A stretch of 64,000 bases of DNA from Sporosarcina ureilytica (GTDB taxonomy: Bacteria > Bacillota > Bacilli > Bacillales_A > Planococcaceae), in contig NZ_CP017560.1 in assembly GCF_001753205.1 (NCBI RefSeq), positions 310,001-374,000 on the forward strand. Direction: 5' to 3'. Under the pieces are notes generated by a model that saw only the letters and a list, made by a program, of their open reading frames with translations, was not told the origin of the DNA and did no database searches. Position 1 is the stretch's first letter; the number at the start of each line of letters is the position of its first letter. The translations under genes and the position numbers were made by a program. Below are positions 50,355 to 60,310 of this stretch, one piece after another.

Positions 50355-50930
50355 TTAGTCCCCAATTAGTCTCAATGGGAATTTCCAAACATATCTACTG
50401 TTATTTTGTGAATCTTTTTCAACGACCTGATATGGTTGGTAAGCTAATCTAACTTTCCCCATGTAAGTGTATTCATTTGGTTTAAGGACTTCGAATAGAT
50501 GTATATCGATATTATTGGTATTTGATTCAAATAAAGTAATGTTTTGATTCCCTTTAAGCTTTTGATCTCCTATTTGGCCCATACCAGTATAATGTAAAAT
50601 ATCGTTCTCCCATCTATCTATGTATACTTCATTTGTCGGCTTTGCTATTAAAACTAAGGTATTGGTTTTGTGTGATCTTCTCATGCCCCCTTGGGTGGAG
50701 CATTTAAAAGTCTTAGCCAATGTGTTATTATTTATTTTCATTCCGGTCTTTAGCATGTCTATCTCTTTTTGCTGACTTGCCATCCAAGCATCCACTTCGG
50801 ATTTTGGAAAATACCTAACCTTCCCCGACTTATAATGCGGCAGCCCCTCTTTTACTAATTCCGCTAGTCCATAGGAAGTCAGATTATATTTGCTTATCAT
50901 TTGTTTTCTATTTAAAAATTTGTCCCCCAC
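50355..50930 (-). CDS. HTH protein with SRA-like (ScoMcrA-type) domain, no nuclease
   Basis: 191 aa. Residues 4-50 form an excisionase/MerR-type helix-turn-helix (RKQMISKYNL..., ending in FPKSEVDAWM). Residues 70-189 resemble the SRA-like domain found in front of HNH nucleases of ScoMcrA type (STQGGMRRSHKTNTLVL, DILHYTGMGQIGDQKL, HLFEV, VWKFPLRL), which reads modified DNA. No HNH nuclease follows, so either it is truncated or it acts as a sensor or regulator. GTG start behind a run of eight G. Family assignment is from memory of motif patterns. Confidence 0.7.
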   Translation of the reverse strand: MGDKFLNRKQMISKYNLTSYGLAELVKEGLPHYKSGKVRYFPKSEVDAWMASQQKEIDMLKTGMKINNNTLAKTFKCSTQGGMRRSHKTNTLVLIAKPTNEVYIDRWENDILHYTGMGQIGDQKLKGNQNITLFESNTNNIDIHLFEVLKPNEYTYMGKVRLAYQPYQVVEKDSQNNSRYVWKFPLRLIGD

Positions 50931-51185
50931 ACGATTCCCCCCCCTTATGTCGAATATTTTATTATAATATTATTGTATCAAACTAAGCAGGTGAAGCCGA
51001 ACGTGTAATTCATTCTTAAAGGAGCATATACTAATTAGTTTTTTAACGAATACTAGTTCATTTAATAGCTTTTTAAGGATGAGTTGCGTGAATAATGATA
51101 TAATTCTGGAGGGGTAATTTACAGATAGCTTTTAATAAATTTACTTTTGTAATAAATATTAAGAGAAGTAGAGGGAGATTTTAAG

Positions 51186-51560
51186 TTGAAAATAAATCTT
51201 GAAGAAACAGAAATCCAGTTGCTAGACGACAATGGGGATGTTTTTCTGGAAAAAGGTATATTAATAGAAGGCGATGGTCTTTGCGCTATCTATTCGAATG
51301 GATCATTTGATTTTGTATGTACCGCAGGATACGAACTAGATCATATTCTTACTTCTCAAAATCTCACCTTACAAGAATTAACCGAGGAACGATTATGTTC
51401 TCATTGCAAGAGTCCAATGCAAGAAGGGTTTTACTTTGAATCGGATGGAACCCAGTATTGTAGTAAAGAATGCTTGACTAAGGTGATTTCCTGGGGAGAG
51501 TATTTGGATATTTACGACAACGGAGATGGGAATGCTTATTGGACGGCTTGGGAGGATTAA
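51186..51560 (+). CDS. Small protein with Cys-pair (zinc-like) motif, unknown
   Basis: 124-aa acidic protein that starts at TTG 51186, 8 nt after GAGGGAG. It contains CSHCKSP and CSKEC, a likely four-Cys metal site (about residues 71-97), and ends in a tryptophan- and aspartate-rich tail (NGDGNAYWTAWED). Similar tails occur in proteins from mobile elements. Lies 41 nt upstream of the NUDIX gene and probably shares its transcript. Confidence 0.65.
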   Translation: MKINLEETEIQLLDDNGDVFLEKGILIEGDGLCAIYSNGSFDFVCTAGYELDHILTSQNLTLQELTEERLCSHCKSPMQEGFYFESDGTQYCSKECLTKVISWGEYLDIYDNGDGNAYWTAWED

Positions 51561-51601
51561 CTAAACAATATATACCCTGAAAAAGCTATTAACAGAGGAA
51601 G

Positions 51602-52006
51602 GTGAGATTAATTAAAAAGCTAGTACATGTTGTTGCTGCAGTAATTAAAAATGAAAATGGAGAAATACTTTGTGCATTAAGAGGACCAGAGATGGAGCTG
51701 CCGAACTATTGGGAATTCCCCGGAGGTAAAATTGAAAAAGGTGAATCAAAAGTAGAGGCTTTAGAAAGAGAAATTTTAGAAGAATTAGGTTGTCAAATAG
51801 AGGTGTTTGAGGGTGTAGACGATACTACATACGAGTATCAAAAAGTAATTGTGAGACTGGAAACGTTCAAAGCTAAAATTGTAAAAGGGATTCCAAGGGC
51901 GTCGGAACATGCTGAACTGAAATGGGTTCCTACAATTAGGCTGCCGGAACTTCATTGGGCTCCTGCAGATATTCCAACAGTTAGGAGGCTAGTAAACAAT
52001 GCATGA
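51602..52006 (+). CDS. NUDIX (deoxy)nucleoside triphosphate pyrophosphohydrolase
   Basis: 134-aa MutT/CTP-pyrophosphohydrolase-like protein. A complete NUDIX box spans residues 42-64 (GKIEKGE...REILEELG). The start is ambiguous: GTG 51602 lies within the AGGAAGGTGA ribosome site, while the homologous start would fall at ATT 51611, a rare start codon. The 3' end overlaps the helicase gene by 8 nt, so the two products are made together. Role probably linked to the helicase rather than to pool cleaning alone (inference). Confidence 0.88.
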   Translation: MRLIKKLVHVVAAVIKNENGEILCALRGPEMELPNYWEFPGGKIEKGESKVEALEREILEELGCQIEVFEGVDDTTYEYQKVIVRLETFKAKIVKGIPRASEHAELKWVPTIRLPELHWAPADIPTVRRLVNNA

Positions 52007-55000
52007 GGGGATTTACGAACAATTAATCAATGAAAAAGTACGTTCTAATTTGGATAATCTTTCACCAGACTTATATTCGATAAGTACTGAAAATATTGAT
52101 GTTGAAGAGGCAAAAGCTTATCTGTCCGCTTATATTTCGGAAGTGACTCGTATTGCGCTTGCTGTTATTAGAGAAGACGAAAAGACTCCGAGTGAGGCTA
52201 TTATTCAACAAGTCAGGACTTGTAATGACATAATTCATATACTAAGTGAAAAGTTACATGACAAGGAGTTTACAGAACTCAAGCTTGAAGAAAGCGGCGA
52301 AATATTAACTTCAGTATATAGCAAGTTGAATACTGTCCGTTCTCTTAAGCAAATAAAATCTGAACGGCCAGTAACTTCTATTTCTCAAAGTTCTTTATTT
52401 ACAGGATCGTATCATGAACCGAATATGCTTGAAGAATTAAAGAAAGAAATTGCTTCGTCAGACGAAATAGAATGGCTAGTATCATTTATTAAATGGTCTG
52501 GTCTTCGAATTATTGTAGAAGATCTGCGTGAATTTACAAAACGTGGTGGGTTATTACGGATTATTACAACTTCGTATATGGAAGCGACTGATTATAAAGC
52601 ACTCGAAGAATTGAGTAAATTACCAAATACAGAAATAAGGGTATCTCTGGATAAAAAGAGAACGCGCCTACATGCGAAAGCCTATTTATTTAAAAGGAAA
52701 ACAGGTTTCAGTACAGCGTATATTGGTTCCTCAAACTTATCAAATCCAGCTTTGACTTCAGGCCTTGAGTGGAATATGAAAGTGACGGAGAAAGAATCAT
52801 TTGATATTATTCGTAAATTTGAGGCGACATTTGAAAGTTATTGGAACGATGAGGAATTTAAATCGCTATCCATTGACGAGGCTGAGAATTGGCAATTACT
52901 ACGTCAATCGCTTACGAAGGAAGTGATTGAAGAAGAAAAAGCCCAATACTTTTTTGATATTAGACCTTATCATTACCAACGAGAGATTTTGGATGAACTT
53001 GAGGCGGAGCGGGTTATCTATAAACGGACGAAAAACCTAGTTGTTGCGGCAACAGGTGTAGGGAAGACTGTCATTTCAGCATTTGATTTTAAGCGTTATT
53101 TACGTCAAAATCCAGATGCTAAACTATTGTTTATTGCACATCGTGAAGAAATCTTGCAACAGAGTTTAATGACTTTTCGAATGATTTTAAAGGATGCTAA
53201 CTTTGGAGAATTATTTGTCGGAAGACACACACCAAATGCTTTAAACGATTTATTTATGAGTATTCAGAGTTGGAACAGTAGAAAGATGGACGGTAAGACA
53301 ACAGAAGAATTTTATGATTTTATCATTGTGGATGAGTTTCATCATGCCGCAGCCCCAACATATCAAAGACTACTAGAATTTTATAAACCTAAAATATTAC
53401 TAGGACTGACTGCTACTCCCGACCGAATGGACAATCAAAGCATTTTAACTTATTTTGATGACGTTATTGCATCGGAAATGAGGTTGACGGAAGCGATAGA
53501 TAGAAAGCTTCTAAGTCCATTTCATTATTTTTGTGTAACAGACAATGTAGATTTGACTGGGATTAAGTGGTCAAGAAGAGGCTATGATATTGGAGAGTTA
53601 ACCAATGTTTATACGGCAAATCATAGACGAAGCGACCTCGTTATTCGTAGTATAAAAAAGTATGTGACATCTTTAGATGATGTAAAAGGTCTTGGCTTTT
53701 GTGTTTCGGTGGAACATGCGTTATACATGGCTTCATATTTTAATCAAAAAAACATCCCATCCATTGCGCTTCACGGTGATTCATCGGATGAAGAAAGACA
53801 ATCGGCTCAAAGAAGATTGGTGCAAGGCGAAGTGAAGTTTATTTTCGTAGTCGATTTATATAATGAAGGTGTTGATATTCCAGAAGTGAACACTGTCTTA
53901 TTCTTGCGTCCTACTGAGAGTTTGACGGTTTTTTTACAACAACTTGGTCGGGGATTACGTCTTGCCGATGATAAGGAATGTTTAACAGTACTAGATTTTG
54001 TTGGCCAGGCACATAAAGATTATCCATTTGAAGAGAAATTTCGTGCACTGGTAGGGAGGTCTAAACACTCGATTCGGCACTATGTAGAGAATGGATTTTA
54101 TCACTTACCGAAGGGCTCAGTTATTCAAATGGAGAAGCAGGCGAAGGAGTATATTTTAAGAAATATTAAAGTTGCTAAGAATACAAAAGCAAATCTAACT
54201 TCTAAACTTAAATATTTCAAAGAGGATTCGGGAAAACCTTTAACGTTATATAACTTTCTTCGCTTCCATCATCTAACCCTTGCCGAATTTTATGGGGCAA
54301 GTAGAAACCGTTCATTCGAACGCATGAAAGTTGAGGCAGGGGTCGCTGAAGATTTCTCGACAGAAAATGAAGAGTTATTTATGAAGCAAATTCATAAATT
54401 GTTTCACCTGGACTCCTTGGATTTACTAAACTTTTACATGAGATATATTGAGGATGGTGTAATTAAAACAGGAGAGGAATATAGAAAGTTAGGAATGCTC
54501 TATTATTCTTTTTATAATGCACCACCTAAGAACATAGGGTTCGATTCAATGGATGCAGGTATTAAACATCTATTGGAAGAAGAGAGACTTAAGCAAGAAA
54601 TTAAAGAGGTATTGGAGGTTTGCATAAAAAACCTTCATTTTCTTGAAAAGGATACACGATTTAATTTTGTTTCTCCACTTCGTGTTCATGCACATTATAC
54701 AACGGATCAAGTGATGGCTGCATTTGGCTATTACAACGAGGAGAAAAAGCCCGCATTCCGAGAAGGTGTAAAATACTTTGCAGAAGAAAAAACAGATGTC
54801 TTTTTTGTAACCTTAAACAAATCAGAAAAAGACTTTTCACCTTCAACTCAATACGAGGATTATGCGATTAATGACACACTATTCCATTGGCAATCGCAAA
54901 GTCGAACATCTGATACAAGCCCAACGGCAAAGCGCTATATTAACCATAGGAAAACTAATAATAAAGTGGCCTTATTTGTTAGGGAATATACGAGAAAGGA

Positions 55001-55142
55001 TGGATTTACTTCTCCTTTTATCTTTTTAGGAACTGTCGATTATGTAAGTCACTCTGGAAGTAAACCGGTTAGTATTGTATGGAGATTACACGAGCAAATG
55101 CCAGCTAATTTAGTGACCCAAGCCAATAAAAACATTTTATGA
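51999..55142 (+). CDS. PLD-domain SF2 helicase with DUF3427 C-terminus
   Basis: 1047-aa multidomain protein. A helical N-terminus (1-125) precedes a phospholipase D-like nuclease module with one HKD motif (HAK 225-227, GSSNLSN 243-249). An SF2 helicase follows: Walker A ATGVGKT 351-357, DEFH box 445-448, TATP 471-474 and motif VI QQLGRGLR. The C-terminal third is DUF3427-like (YAINDTLFHWQSQS, FLGTVDYVSHSGSKPVSIVW). A single HKD suggests dimerisation for cleavage. Together with the overlapping NUDIX gene it looks like an anti-mobile-DNA module. Confidence 0.9.
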   Translation: MHEGIYEQLINEKVRSNLDNLSPDLYSISTENIDVEEAKAYLSAYISEVTRIALAVIREDEKTPSEAIIQQVRTCNDIIHILSEKLHDKEFTELKLEESGEILTSVYSKLNTVRSLKQIKSERPVTSISQSSLFTGSYHEPNMLEELKKEIASSDEIEWLVSFIKWSGLRIIVEDLREFTKRGGLLRIITTSYMEATDYKALEELSKLPNTEIRVSLDKKRTRLHAKAYLFKRKTGFSTAYIGSSNLSNPALTSGLEWNMKVTEKESFDIIRKFEATFESYWNDEEFKSLSIDEAENWQLLRQSLTKEVIEEEKAQYFFDIRPYHYQREILDELEAERVIYKRTKNLVVAATGVGKTVISAFDFKRYLRQNPDAKLLFIAHREEILQQSLMTFRMILKDANFGELFVGRHTPNALNDLFMSIQSWNSRKMDGKTTEEFYDFIIVDEFHHAAAPTYQRLLEFYKPKILLGLTATPDRMDNQSILTYFDDVIASEMRLTEAIDRKLLSPFHYFCVTDNVDLTGIKWSRRGYDIGELTNVYTANHRRSDLVIRSIKKYVTSLDDVKGLGFCVSVEHALYMASYFNQKNIPSIALHGDSSDEERQSAQRRLVQGEVKFIFVVDLYNEGVDIPEVNTVLFLRPTESLTVFLQQLGRGLRLADDKECLTVLDFVGQAHKDYPFEEKFRALVGRSKHSIRHYVENGFYHLPKGSVIQMEKQAKEYILRNIKVAKNTKANLTSKLKYFKEDSGKPLTLYNFLRFHHLTLAEFYGASRNRSFERMKVEAGVAEDFSTENEELFMKQIHKLFHLDSLDLLNFYMRYIEDGVIKTGEEYRKLGMLYYSFYNAPPKNIGFDSMDAGIKHLLEEERLKQEIKEVLEVCIKNLHFLEKDTRFNFVSPLRVHAHYTTDQVMAAFGYYNEEKKPAFREGVKYFAEEKTDVFFVTLNKSEKDFSPSTQYEDYAINDTLFHWQSQSRTSDTSPTAKRYINHRKTNNKVALFVREYTRKDGFTSPFIFLGTVDYVSHSGSKPVSIVWRLHEQMPANLVTQANKNIL

Positions 55143-55254
55143 ATATCGAGTAATTGTTTTTACTTTTAAGTTTTAATTAGTTTATCGCTAGTGTGTTGCC
55201 TATCGCAATTTGCTTCTTTGGTATTTTGTTCAAATATAAGAGGGAAGTGATCTC

Positions 55255-55734
55255 ATGGGAAGCATGTCAAGATTTTCCGCAATCGAAAAAGTGGTCGATG
55301 CTTTTGAATCAGAAATCTTAACTTTCTTTAATGATTTGGTTGGAATGACGGTGGGACAGCTTAATGAAGAAGATCTCGATGTTGAATATTGGATCGGTGC
55401 TTATGTTCCGTTGAGCGGATCGTCGAACTGGGAGGGGATTGATGTCCATTTTAGATGGGCTACTGAAGAGGAGTTTTATTCGGGTGAAGTAAAGGATGAG
55501 GATATCATTTCCGATTTTAACGAGTCTTTTGCAGGGAATAAAATCACCTCAATTTCAGTTGGCGGACATGATAGAGATGATGAGGTTTATCTATATGCCA
55601 ATATTGACGAGTATTCTTCCATTGAGATCCCTCTAGGTTTTAATCCGGAAACATTGGAGTTTTATGGTTTTATGGAAGATATTTTGGCAGAAGCAAAGCG
55701 AAGAACATTTGTGGGAAATTATTATAGTCACTGA
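55255..55734 (+). CDS. Very acidic protein, unknown function
   Basis: 159 aa with about 33 Asp/Glu against about 9 Lys/Arg. No signal peptide, helix or known motif is visible. GGGAAGTGA precedes ATG 55255 (ATG 55264 is possible). It lies 112 nt downstream of the helicase gene and ends at a strong terminator, so it may be the last gene of that transcript. Its charge recalls DNA-mimic proteins, but this is speculation. Confidence 0.7.
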   Translation: MGSMSRFSAIEKVVDAFESEILTFFNDLVGMTVGQLNEEDLDVEYWIGAYVPLSGSSNWEGIDVHFRWATEEEFYSGEVKDEDIISDFNESFAGNKITSISVGGHDRDDEVYLYANIDEYSSIEIPLGFNPETLEFYGFMEDILAEAKRRTFVGNYYSH

Positions 55735-56533: not shown

Positions 56534-57316
56534 TTAAGGCTCACCCTTGCTAAAATCTAATTCGAATTCTTGTGGTAAATTAATTTTCGGTGAACGTTCA
56601 TTTTCGCTCCTGTATGTTTCCAAATAGTTTTCAAAATTTGTTGCATTGAATAACGTTGAAGGTCGTAAATATTTTCGCCAATGTGCATCGGTTAGCCATT
56701 CGTCTACCTTCGTGTCAATGACATGTCGGAAATCATCCAGTTCGTAACCTTCCTGAAAACGAGCATTCACTAATCGCGTTGTTGCAATCGATGTTGTCTT
56801 GAAATTTTTACCGGTTTTCTCATTTAAATAATCAATGACAGACACAACGTCGGGATGCTTCCCGACAATATCTTTTTTAATACTTTTAATCTCTTTGGTT
56901 ATTGCTAGGGGCATTTTGCTATCATCACACGGTGCAATTTGCATTTCCCCTTCAGATGATCTTGCTTCCATGATGGGGGCATTTTGCTCCATCAAGCGTT
57001 GAAGGGCCACATACTCAATCCGGTACCATTTCGTCTTGTCCATTTTCATCCGATTATACGATGCCGTCGAAACAATTAACCCTTTATTCTCTAGCCTGCG
57101 AATCGTACGTTTAATCGTATCGACAGACCAGAATGGGAATTCTTCACGTTGCCACTCTTCGTATGTCCGATAAACCCACTTATGCCCACCCCGATCGTTT
57201 CTTGAGATGAGCAGTCTGTAGTGTAGTTGTTGGATTAAAATTGCATCGTTTAATCCAAGGAGCATTGCTAATGATGGGAGCACTTGCAGTGGTGATTCGT
57301 TAATTAATAATTTCAT
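56534..57316 (-). CDS. Phage replication-type protein (helix-turn-helix plus Phg_2220_C-like domain)
   Basis: 260 aa. The N-terminal half is a winged-helix with WSVDTIKRTIRRLENKGLI (about residues 63-81), a linker follows, and residues 150-245 match the conserved C-terminal domain of phage replisome organisers (VIDYLNEKTGKNFKTTS, ARFQEGYELDDFRHVID, YLRPSTLF). No other phage gene is nearby, so it is probably a prophage or integrative-element relic kept by the host. GGAGGG precedes the ATG. Confidence 0.85.
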   Translation of the reverse strand: MKLLINESPLQVLPSLAMLLGLNDAILIQQLHYRLLISRNDRGGHKWVYRTYEEWQREEFPFWSVDTIKRTIRRLENKGLIVSTASYNRMKMDKTKWYRIEYVALQRLMEQNAPIMEARSSEGEMQIAPCDDSKMPLAITKEIKSIKKDIVGKHPDVVSVIDYLNEKTGKNFKTTSIATTRLVNARFQEGYELDDFRHVIDTKVDEWLTDAHWRKYLRPSTLFNATNFENYLETYRSENERSPKINLPQEFELDFSKGEP

Positions 57317-57519: not shown

Positions 57520-58074
57520 ATGCCATTTAAAATAATTGAAGATGACATTACAAATCTCGACGTCGATGTCATTGTGAATGCTGCGAATAAAGAACTGCAA
57601 CAAGGCGGGGGTGTTAGTGGTGCAATTTTTAATGCCGCTGGGGCAGCCGAGTTGCAGGCGGCTTGCGATGAAATTGGTGAGTGTCCGGTAGGGGAAGCGG
57701 TGATGACGGATGGTTTTCAACTGCCTGCGAAGAAAATTATTCATACAGTTGGACCGATTTGGCAAGGTGGGCATGCAAATGAAGCAACACAATTAAAAAA
57801 TTGTTATCAAAACGCATTAACGCTTGCGCATGCAAATGATTTGCAATCCATTGCCTTTCCGCTCATTTCTTCAGGCATTTACGGATATCCGATTGAAGAA
57901 GCTTTCCGCATTGCGGGTTCCACCATTCGCGAATTTTTGCAAGAACATGAAATGCTTGTGTATCTTGTCATATTCGATAGGAAAATACTTCGTGTCAATG
58001 AACATTTAATTACGTCCATTTCAAAATACCTTGATGAACATTTAGAAGAAGAACAGGTTTATTTGCAAAGCTAA
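57520..58074 (+). CDS. Macrodomain protein (ADP-ribose hydrolase, YmdB-like)
   Basis: 184-aa single macrodomain predicted to remove ADP-ribose or O-acetyl-ADP-ribose. Conserved: DITNLDVDVIVNAAN, GGGVSGAIFNAAG, and PLISSGIYGYP, which binds the phosphates. AAAGGAGACG precedes ATG 57520. The next gene starts directly after its stop codon, indicating a two-gene unit. Confidence 0.92.
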   Translation: MPFKIIEDDITNLDVDVIVNAANKELQQGGGVSGAIFNAAGAAELQAACDEIGECPVGEAVMTDGFQLPAKKIIHTVGPIWQGGHANEATQLKNCYQNALTLAHANDLQSIAFPLISSGIYGYPIEEAFRIAGSTIREFLQEHEMLVYLVIFDRKILRVNEHLITSISKYLDEHLEEEQVYLQS

Positions 58075-58476
58075 ATGGAAGATTTCATTTTGGAAAAATC
58101 TATCGAAAGTAGTTTGGAAAGTGTGCTAGAACGATTAGATGAGTCGTTTTCTGAAAGGTTACTTCGTTTAATTGATGAAAAAGGAATGACGGACGTTGAA
58201 ACGTATAAGAAGGCGAATATTGACCGTCGATTGTTTTCGAAAATCCGTAATTCGGATACGTATAATCCACATAAGAAAACGGTCATTGCGTTTGCAATTG
58301 CGCTGGAATTAACAATCGAGGAGGCGCTCGATCTATTGGCAAAAGCGGGCTATACATTATCGCGAAGTAGTAAATTTGATGTGATTATCGAATACTTTAT
58401 CGCAGAACAAAATTATAATATCCATGAAATTAACGAAGCGTTGTTTAATTTTGACCAAATTTTATTAGGCGCATAA
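58075..58476 (+). CDS. XRE-like HTH protein paired with the macrodomain gene
   Basis: 133-aa protein. The middle (about residues 24-90) has the layout of a phage-repressor HTH ([31 protein letters not shown]) followed by [20 protein letters not shown]; the C-terminus ends in LLGA, typical of this family. Its ATG follows the macrodomain stop with no gap. Function of the pair is unknown; a regulatory or toxin/antidote-like role in ADP-ribose metabolism is possible. Confidence 0.8.
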
Positions 58477-59457: not shown

Positions 59458-59655
59458 ATGACACACGAACAAAAGGACTTACCAAAATTAGCCAAACCGG
59501 CACTGCGCGCATTAGCGGGGGCTGGTATTTCAAAATTGGATGACTTAGCGAAGTATCGAGAAGAAGAAGTGATGGAACTTCACGGAATGGGCCCGAAAGC
59601 GATGGCTGTACTTCAACAAGCAATGGAAGAGAACAGTGTTCCTTTTCTGAAGTGA
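59458..59655 (+). CDS. Small helix-hairpin-helix protein (RNA polymerase alpha CTD-like)
   Basis: 65-aa protein with one HhH/SAM-like fold: ALRALAGAGISKLDDLAKY and the second hairpin LHGMGPKAMAVLQQ. Sequences of this type resemble the C-terminal domain of the RNA polymerase alpha subunit and probably bind DNA. GGAGGA precedes ATG 59458. Its 3' end and terminator are duplicated at 60336-60529, downstream of arr. Confidence 0.85.
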   Translation: MTHEQKDLPKLAKPALRALAGAGISKLDDLAKYREEEVMELHGMGPKAMAVLQQAMEENSVPFLK

Positions 59656-59893: not shown

Positions 59894-60310
59894 ATGAATA
59901 ATAAAAAAGATGTCTTAGATAATGGTCCATTTTTCCATGGTACGAAAGCAGAACTGGAAATTGGAGATTTCTTAGAACCACAACACTTATCAAATTACCA
60001 AGATAAAAAATCCAATTATATCTACTTTACTGCGACATTAGATGCGGCTAAATGGGGTGCTGAGTTGGCAACATCCAAAGCAAAGGAAAGAATCTATATT
60101 GTCGAACCACTGGGGGATTTTGAAAATGACCCGAACTTAACCGACAAAAGATTTCCTGGAAACCCAACACGTTCGTATAGATCAAAATCTCCTTTGAAAA
60201 TAATAGCCGAATTAGGTTCATGGGAAAGACATTCCGATGATGAAATCAATCATATGCTGACATCATTACAAAAGTTGCGTGAACAAGGAATAGCTATCAT
60301 ATACGATTAA
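59894..60310 (+). CDS. arr: NAD+-rifampin ADP-ribosyltransferase Arr
   Basis: 138-aa enzyme that ADP-ribosylates rifamycins and inactivates them, giving resistance. Conserved parts: GPFFHGTKAEL (His), SNYIYFTATLDAAKWGAELA (Tyr), and TRSYRSKSPLKI with the Arg/Lys and Asp-rich surroundings of Arr. GAGGTG precedes ATG 59894 and a TATAAT lies at 59856-59861. It is flanked on both sides by duplicated host sequence (59598-59724 and 60336-60529), so it may have arrived by duplication-associated insertion. Confidence 0.93.
   Translation: MNNKKDVLDNGPFFHGTKAELEIGDFLEPQHLSNYQDKKSNYIYFTATLDAAKWGAELATSKAKERIYIVEPLGDFENDPNLTDKRFPGNPTRSYRSKSPLKIIAELGSWERHSDDEINHMLTSLQKLREQGIAIIYD

Follow-up and report, generated by a model that had tools for sequence, protein, structure and literature searches.

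NUDIX Genes as Partners of SauUSI-Type Restriction Enzymes, Viewed from a Locus of Sporosarcina ureilytica

Gene transfer in Staphylococcus aureus meets a major barrier in SauUSI, a type IV (modified-cytosine-dependent) restriction enzyme that cuts at a single site; the main text of the SauUSI paper gives H119/K121 as its PLD pair and describes a C-terminal domain with an SRA fold, modelled to flip out 5-methylcytosine and to surround the base with Y831, F841, I842, D858, and W868 (PMC7913695). Already known, too, are a link between the DUF3427 domain and SauUSI (PMC7159879), the adjacency of MutT homologues and SauUSI homologues in Streptococcus, recorded in the legend to Fig. 9 of PMC7641849, and PDC-S07, a PADLOC candidate system that is itself unproven and that features in published work (PMC11514479). 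Here we describe a predicted enzyme of the SauUSI type in a stretch of 64,000 nucleotides from Sporosarcina ureilytica (assembly GCF_001753205.1, contig NZ_CP017560.1, positions 310,001 to 374,000; this whole stretch is called the window below), in which the gene for a 1047-amino-acid protein (51999..55142, + strand) follows a NudG/MutT-like NUDIX gene (51602..52006, + strand, GTG start), and we report that NUDIX genes are real partners of SauUSI-type enzymes. An earlier note on this DNA had placed both genes in a five-gene defence module, together with genes for an HTH-SRA protein, a four-Cys protein, and an acidic protein. All five open reading frames (ORFs) lie where it put them, with every coordinate reproduced, and its observation is confirmed. 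Its interpretation is partly supported: the locus looks like a modified-DNA restriction module, but its genes do not form a fixed module of five.

The predicted restriction enzyme and its NUDIX neighbor

The 1047-amino-acid protein is predicted to be a SauUSI-type type IV restriction enzyme. Pfam recognizes PLDc_2 (5e-13), ResIII (9e-34), Helicase_C (3e-14), and DUF3427 (1e-31) in it, the PADLOC mREase_IV profile PDLC03659 matches it at 3e-227, and its closest solved relative is PDB 7clg (E 4e-90, residues 144-1019), under which the structure of SauUSI is deposited (PMC7913695). The two enzymes have in common the PLD-SF2-coupler-SRA order, the HxK pair (H225 and K227 in the window enzyme, aligning with H119 and K121), and the base-pocket residues (Y926, F936, V937, D954, and W964, with V937 where SauUSI has I). 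They differ in that the window enzyme has about 100 additional N-terminal residues, belongs to a separate subfamily (branch support 98), and has K in place of SauUSI E126, a position that is variable across the family. DUF3427 being the SRA domain of SauUSI, the helicase protein carries its own modified-base reader and no separate sensor is needed, a refinement of the earlier note's reading. Homology predicts ATP-dependent cleavage of DNA containing 5-methylcytosine (m5C) or 5-hydroxymethylcytosine (hm5C). Pfam searches found no cognate methylase among the 17 proteins of the 45.3-60.3 kb region, the five reported ones included; the remaining genome was not searched.

The stop of the NUDIX gene and the start of the restriction gene share 8 nucleotides, ATGCATGA, an overlap already reported in the earlier note and reproduced here. 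The NUDIX protein matches the Pfam NUDIX family (3e-15) and the PADLOC PDC-S07 profile (PDLC04899, E 2.7e-49), and it matches PDB 5x1x (6e-33), which was deposited as "Mutator mutT protein." Its match to the NCBIfam NudG model PRK10546 (2.5e-26, 92 bits) is below the cut-off of 156 and so falls short of equivalog level, and its score against the MutT model (78.7) is likewise below the cut-off (97.9). We predict a NudG/MutT-like deoxynucleoside triphosphate (dNTP) pyrophosphatase, like NudG in its way of working only. Escherichia coli NudG (Orf135) and the NUDIX partners of SauUSI-type enzymes belong to the same family and have in common the Nudix box and the Asp118 position, at which 156 of 157 partners carry Asp; the Asn at MutT position 119, which we take as a mark of MutT, is replaced by Asp in the same 156 of 157. 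At the MutT 115 position, 149/157 partners have Trp versus 4/26 comparison rows, a contrast that is in part due to kinship; five of the 26 rows lie near an enzyme and three are weak paralogues.

Breadth, recruitment, and replacement of the partner

A partner was defined as a NUDIX gene within 400 bp of the enzyme gene, upstream or downstream and on either strand, in bacteria and archaea, and NUDIX genes were counted from stop-to-stop ORF scans, which keep overlapping genes. Such a gene accompanies 134 of 188 SauUSI-family genes, a set that is not a random sample. By chance, the density of this type of NUDIX gene in 348 genomes would place about 2e-4 of them within 400 bp of a gene 3 kb long (the estimate used a rounded 150 NUDIX matches; the table for the 348 genomes sums to 138). 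In the same 348 genomes, an evenly drawn phylum sample, PF11907 occurs in 43, 19 of which, the window's included, have a NUDIX gene within 400 bp. In the genus of the window, relatives of the 1047-amino-acid protein (E <= 1e-60) are present in 45 of 61 genomes, and a NUDIX gene lies in the immediate neighborhood of 39 of the 41 enzyme genes fetched that fall outside the 806-amino-acid group described below; the other two are L091 and L044, the latter a broken copy, and a 127-amino-acid remnant (L052) is left out of the count. Of the best-scoring 80 among 584 named loci with a relative, drawn from bacteria and archaea, 68 had a NUDIX gene within 300 bp, including one whose NUDIX gene is cut by the contig end (L256) and leaving out L234, where the NUDIX gene adjoins a broken second copy of the enzyme and not the main gene. 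The remaining 12 comprise two with a NUDIX gene farther off (382 bp in L183 and 1048 bp in L233), four at contig ends (L188, L218, L225, and L235), and six without one nearby (L186, L222, the main copy of L234, L249, L254, and L257).

In Staphylococcus, the enzyme was found in 30 of 61 genomes, and a NUDIX gene abuts it in 30/30, two broken enzyme copies (L312 and L313) included. Locus L298 encodes, side by side, sequences that match SauUSI over a 289-residue fragment and 5x1x over 127 residues, each at 100% identity, the enzyme starting one base after the NUDIX stop; a solved structure, 5x1x, thus exists for a NUDIX protein adjoining a SauUSI sequence. A named S. aureus record has the same neighbor, annotated as "(deoxy)nucleoside triphosphate pyrophosphohydrolase," with the enzyme there in pieces. 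The pair of NUDIX and helicase genes to which the earlier note drew attention is therefore conserved far beyond the genus, and since it is found in varying neighborhoods, it reflects more than core-genome synteny. Co-occurrence with the helicase gene is strong for the NUDIX gene and weak for the flanking genes.

A tree of the 188 enzyme sequences falls into three groups: a canonical group, the subfamily of about 1050 amino acids to which the window enzyme belongs, and a group of about 806 amino acids. Of the 134 rows that represent the canonical group, 80 are named loci, the window's genus supplies 28 and the phylum sample 14, and the others come from Staphylococcus (10 of its 30 loci) and plasmids (2). 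A NUDIX gene lies within 400 bp in 116 of the 134, or in 116/129 when only genes that have a partner, or that leave at least 500 bp for one, are considered. In the window's subfamily the figure is 18/39, made up of 12/13 in the genus and 6/26 elsewhere, and outside the genus its NUDIX pairing is only patchy.

The NUDIX gene lies upstream on the same strand in 85 cases, downstream on the same strand in 33, and downstream on the opposite strand in 17, and this variety of placements argues that the pair is not one frozen operon. The NUDIX tree places the phylum-sample partners of the window's subfamily in several positions, most of them among unpaired NudG-like enzymes, nests the window's NUDIX protein with the partners of canonical enzymes (SH-aLRT 97), and groups the partners of ten genus-mates in a clade of their own (SH-aLRT 95). 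NUDIX partners have been recruited several times, independently. In another genome of the genus (G015), the same chromosomal slot holds relatives of the Cys protein (67% identical over 63 residues), the NUDIX protein (69%), the acidic protein (47%), and an ECF transporter (80%), together with a different enzyme that is 34% identical to that of the window. Such interchange of partners between distant enzymes points to a diffusible job for the NUDIX protein, one that needs no tailored contact and no place as a subunit.

In the 806-amino-acid group, the slot is taken by a MazG-like gene, so that a putative nucleoside triphosphate (NTP) pyrophosphatase of a different type stands in for the NUDIX protein. 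The gene is present in 15/15 tree rows, which form one clade of 15 (support 100) when the tree is rooted on the window; counted by locus, it abuts or overlaps the enzyme start in 16/16 (15 in the genus and one in another family), and a further case in the window's family (L342/L359) was found by another route. In the one 806-amino-acid member tested, DUF3427 was not detected and the C-terminal domain gave no significant match; the rest of the protein suggests that this group, too, reads modified DNA. Among the MazG-like proteins, PF01503 is over its cut-off in L099 (23.0 versus 21.3) and below it in L095, L141, and L039, NCBIfam gave no match for the two partners tested, and PADLOC gave none for the one tested. 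E44, E47, E60, and D63 are invariant in 7 sequences, forming an EExxE...ExxD pattern that we take to be the motif of MazG-like all-alpha NTP pyrophosphatases. A plasmid of Lactiplantibacillus encodes a SauUSI-type enzyme that has both kinds of flanking gene, NUDIX and MazG-like (PF12643, over cut-off). L042, L095, and L141 contain double modules: an 806-amino-acid enzyme with its MazG-like gene adjoins a NUDIX-SauUSI pair, in a back-to-back arrangement or alongside it. In L037 (7946-8344) and L039 (3686-4060), a MazG-like gene lies next to a NUDIX-enzyme pair, and no 806-amino-acid enzyme was detected in the fetched stretch; these genes are possibly the remains of a double module.

Specificity and possible role of the partner

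We propose that the pair in the window is a two-gene type IV restriction unit in which the NUDIX protein clears modified dCTP for self-protection, a reading for which the sequence comparisons leave the balance about even. By homology with SauUSI, the SRA domain would flip out 5-methyl- or 5-hydroxymethylcytosine, base flipping would switch on the SF2 motor, and a dimeric PLD nuclease would then shred the DNA. The NUDIX pyrophosphatase would hydrolyze 5-methyl- or 5-hydroxymethyl-dCTP, for example that recycled from shredded DNA, and the host polymerase would thereby be kept from placing the target base in the chromosome. The NUDIX protein would thus be a nucleotide-pool antidote, in the role that a cognate methylase has in an ordinary restriction system. 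At the core of this proposal is the fact that NUDIX and MazG-like kin both act on 5-methyl-dCTP, the target nucleotide of the nuclease: E. coli NudG acts on 5-methyl-dCTP with a kcat/Km of 3e5 /M/s, MutT being weak on the same nucleotide (PMC3744803), a NudG structure is entered as that of a 5-methyl-dCTP pyrophosphatase (PMC5389931), and the MazG-like human enzyme DCTPP1 is tied to 5-methyl-dCTP metabolism (PMC4491611). Given that the pairing is so widespread, the NUDIX protein probably serves to prevent the marked base from entering the host's DNA. A broader and more tentative suggestion is that SauUSI-type enzymes in general form toxin-antidote pairs with a pool-acting NTP pyrophosphatase, NUDIX or MazG-like, supplemented in two species of the genus by a nuclease-less HTH-SRA protein as a transcriptional sensor.

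Several observations weigh against self-protection through the nucleotide pool. The canonical set is not random (80 of its members are the best-scoring 80 of 584, and 28 come from the window's genus), so that 116/134 is not an unbiased figure; canonical genes from the evenly drawn phylum sample alone have a NUDIX gene in 11/14 cases. No NUDIX gene lies within 400 bp of 18/134 canonical genes and 21/39 genes of the window's subfamily, and no obvious substitute NTPase was seen beside 24 NUDIX-less enzymes, whose neighbors were read by eye and not profile-searched; the partner is therefore not obligatory. Plasmids gave 20 records with a match; of the 11 loci inspected there, 7 are without a NUDIX gene and 4 have one. 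In none of 401 loci is NUDIX or MazG fused to the enzyme. Asp118 is present in 18/18 unpaired strong NUDIX matches fetched (a nineteenth, L333 [G140:C38], was dropped, its NUDIX gene lying 117 bp from an enzyme-family ORF) and hence marks the NudG-like family and not the partnership, for which it was rejected as a signature. The substrates of NudG also include dCTP and CTP, according to the title of a cited paper. Finally, if self-protection of this kind were general, other modification-dependent enzymes would be expected to have a NUDIX partner, and they are mostly without one.

The last point rests on two controls. McrBC is another m5C-dependent system, and in a sample of 30 McrBC loci from 59 genomes with a match, none has a NUDIX gene of its own, the single one within 1.5 kb belonging to a SauUSI-type neighbor. 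Among 13 full-length loci for SRA-HNH enzymes, one has a NUDIX gene next door (L352 [G041:C24], about 12 bp upstream), and the MazG-like gene at another SRA-HNH locus, L359, goes with an 806-amino-acid enzyme. On these grounds we rejected a general rule by which pool-cleaning partners would accompany all type IV enzymes. McrBC needs two sites, and the single-site cutting of SauUSI could explain the difference in partners. Overall, the partnership is specific to SauUSI-type enzymes, mainly those of the canonical and 806-amino-acid groups, and it is not obligatory. The SRA-HNH protein of L352 is an observation in its own right, since it extends this kind of NUDIX partner to a further type IV-like enzyme.

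Other roles for the NUDIX protein were weighed against self-protection. It could be an attacking arm that destroys the hydroxymethyl-dCTP or dCTP pool of modified-DNA phages while the enzyme cuts DNA already made. The predicted substrate class is then the same as for an antidote, the NUDIX protein has a PADLOC defence candidate match of its own, and PDC-S07 is entered as a one-ORF system in the S. thermophilus table of PMC11514479. However, once modified dCTP had been cleared, the partner nuclease would see phage DNA less well and the two arms would partly cancel, and NUDIX relatives are common in genomes without the enzyme; we consider this role unlikely. It is somewhat more doubtful still that the NUDIX protein works on the enzyme itself, by binding, by dosage through the overlapping start, or by nucleotide-signal control, and not on modified dNTPs: the genes do overlap or abut in many loci, but the partner swaps across subfamilies that are about 34% identical, it also occurs on the opposite strand and downstream, and it can be replaced by a MazG-like gene.

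That the NUDIX gene is a general mutation-avoidance gene of the 8-oxo-dGTP type, merely travelling with defence genes, would fit the deposition of 5x1x as MutT and the frequency of the MutT/NudG family in genomes without the enzyme (NudG-like NUDIX matches in 128/348 genomes versus PF11907 in 43). Adjacency across phyla, the independent recruitments, and the absence of such a NUDIX gene from the 30 McrBC loci, except the one belonging to a SauUSI-type neighbor, make this improbable. Equally improbable, in our judgment, is a single defence system of all five genes, in which the HTH-SRA protein would be the sensor, the NUDIX and helicase proteins the core, and the Cys and acidic proteins the effectors. 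In its favor, genome G058 has the order HTH-SRA (- strand), Cys, Cys, NUDIX, enzyme as in the window, with one opposite-strand ORF between, and G015 has Cys, NUDIX, enzyme, and acidic genes in the same slot. Across the 61 genomes of the genus, however, the Cys gene is found in 16, and the window form of HTH-SRA and the acidic gene in 2 each, the second genome differing between them; moreover, of the 45 genomes with an enzyme relative, only 12 have the Cys gene beside it.

Flanking genes and relation to described systems

The gene for the small four-Cys protein (CxxC...CxxxC; 51186..51560, + strand, TTG start) is a genus-level accessory. Twelve of its 16 matches in the genus are beside a SauUSI-family gene (degenerate in G003), tandem second forms with a different Cys motif occur in some genomes, and the other four comprise a full gene with no enzyme there (G006), a remnant (G005), and two weak matches (G038 and G055). 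The protein is possibly zinc binding. The remnant in G005 (L088) lies near a C5-cytosine methylase gene, and that genome gave no match to the enzyme at 1e-60.

The divergent gene at 50355..50930 (- strand) encodes HTH_17 and a weak RE_AspBHI_N match (E 0.033), so that the SRA-like reading in the earlier note is weak by Pfam alone; it is upheld through SRA-HNH and HTH-SRA-HNH relatives. Its one close relative, in G058, is 58% identical and occupies the same position, divergent from Cys-NUDIX-enzyme; three further genomes of the genus have the SRA part only, and wider relatives (L343 and L350) are HTH-SRA-HNH proteins. SRA-HNH endonucleases, which we liken to TagI, have the SRA-like domain in common with the window protein and carry an HNH domain, whereas the window protein and its G058 orthologue end where HNH begins. 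We therefore regard it as a predicted nuclease-less relative of HTH-SRA-HNH proteins and, as a guess, as a putative regulator of the divergent operon that reads modified DNA. Viral scans found no relatives of the HTH-SRA or Cys protein, and the phage collection held none of HTH-SRA; single-sequence structure predictions gave a mean predicted local distance difference test score of 38 for HTH-SRA and 39 for the Cys protein. In the intergenic region between the HTH-SRA gene and the Cys-NUDIX-restriction operon, as read from the sequence (50931..51185), promoter and terminator scans did no better than on shuffles, and no shared palindrome stood out between this region and its counterpart in L080.

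Downstream, the acidic protein gene (55255..55734, + strand), with no Pfam match and no assigned family, is found only in the window and G015 among the 61 genus genomes, in the same slot in both, and is linked to that chromosomal slot. Farther along are a gene for a conserved phage C-terminal domain (56534-57316; Phg_2220_C/TIGR02220), the neighbors examined not being phage-like, a macro-domain gene (57520-58476) followed directly by one for a small HTH-like protein, a 65-amino-acid protein like the RNA polymerase alpha C-terminal domain, below the Pfam cut-off (59458-59655), and a rifampin ADP-ribosyltransferase-like gene (59894-60310; Arr-ms, E 1.1e-46).

Should an NTP pyrophosphatase accompany most canonical relatives, the pair should be the unit of study, and it would become testable how a methylase-less cell avoids cutting itself after the target base has entered its own DNA through salvage or decay. 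Two enzyme types in the same slot offer a concrete, cheap biochemical test. In a literature search that covered neither subscription papers nor preprints, no role for the pairing was put forward in the available sections of PMC7641849 and PMC7159879, and MutT, NUDIX, and operon are absent from the main text of PMC7913695. The Streptococcus adjacency of PMC7641849 is the same pairing as that described here; its section gives no function, breadth, or MazG substitute, and MazG is absent from its main text. PADLOC covers both halves of the window pair by two separate profiles, the enzyme matching mREase_IV (PDLC03659) and the NUDIX protein matching PDC-S07 (PDLC04899). In SauUSI itself, as represented by the identical sequence in L298, the NUDIX gene is directly upstream of the enzyme, as it is in the window.

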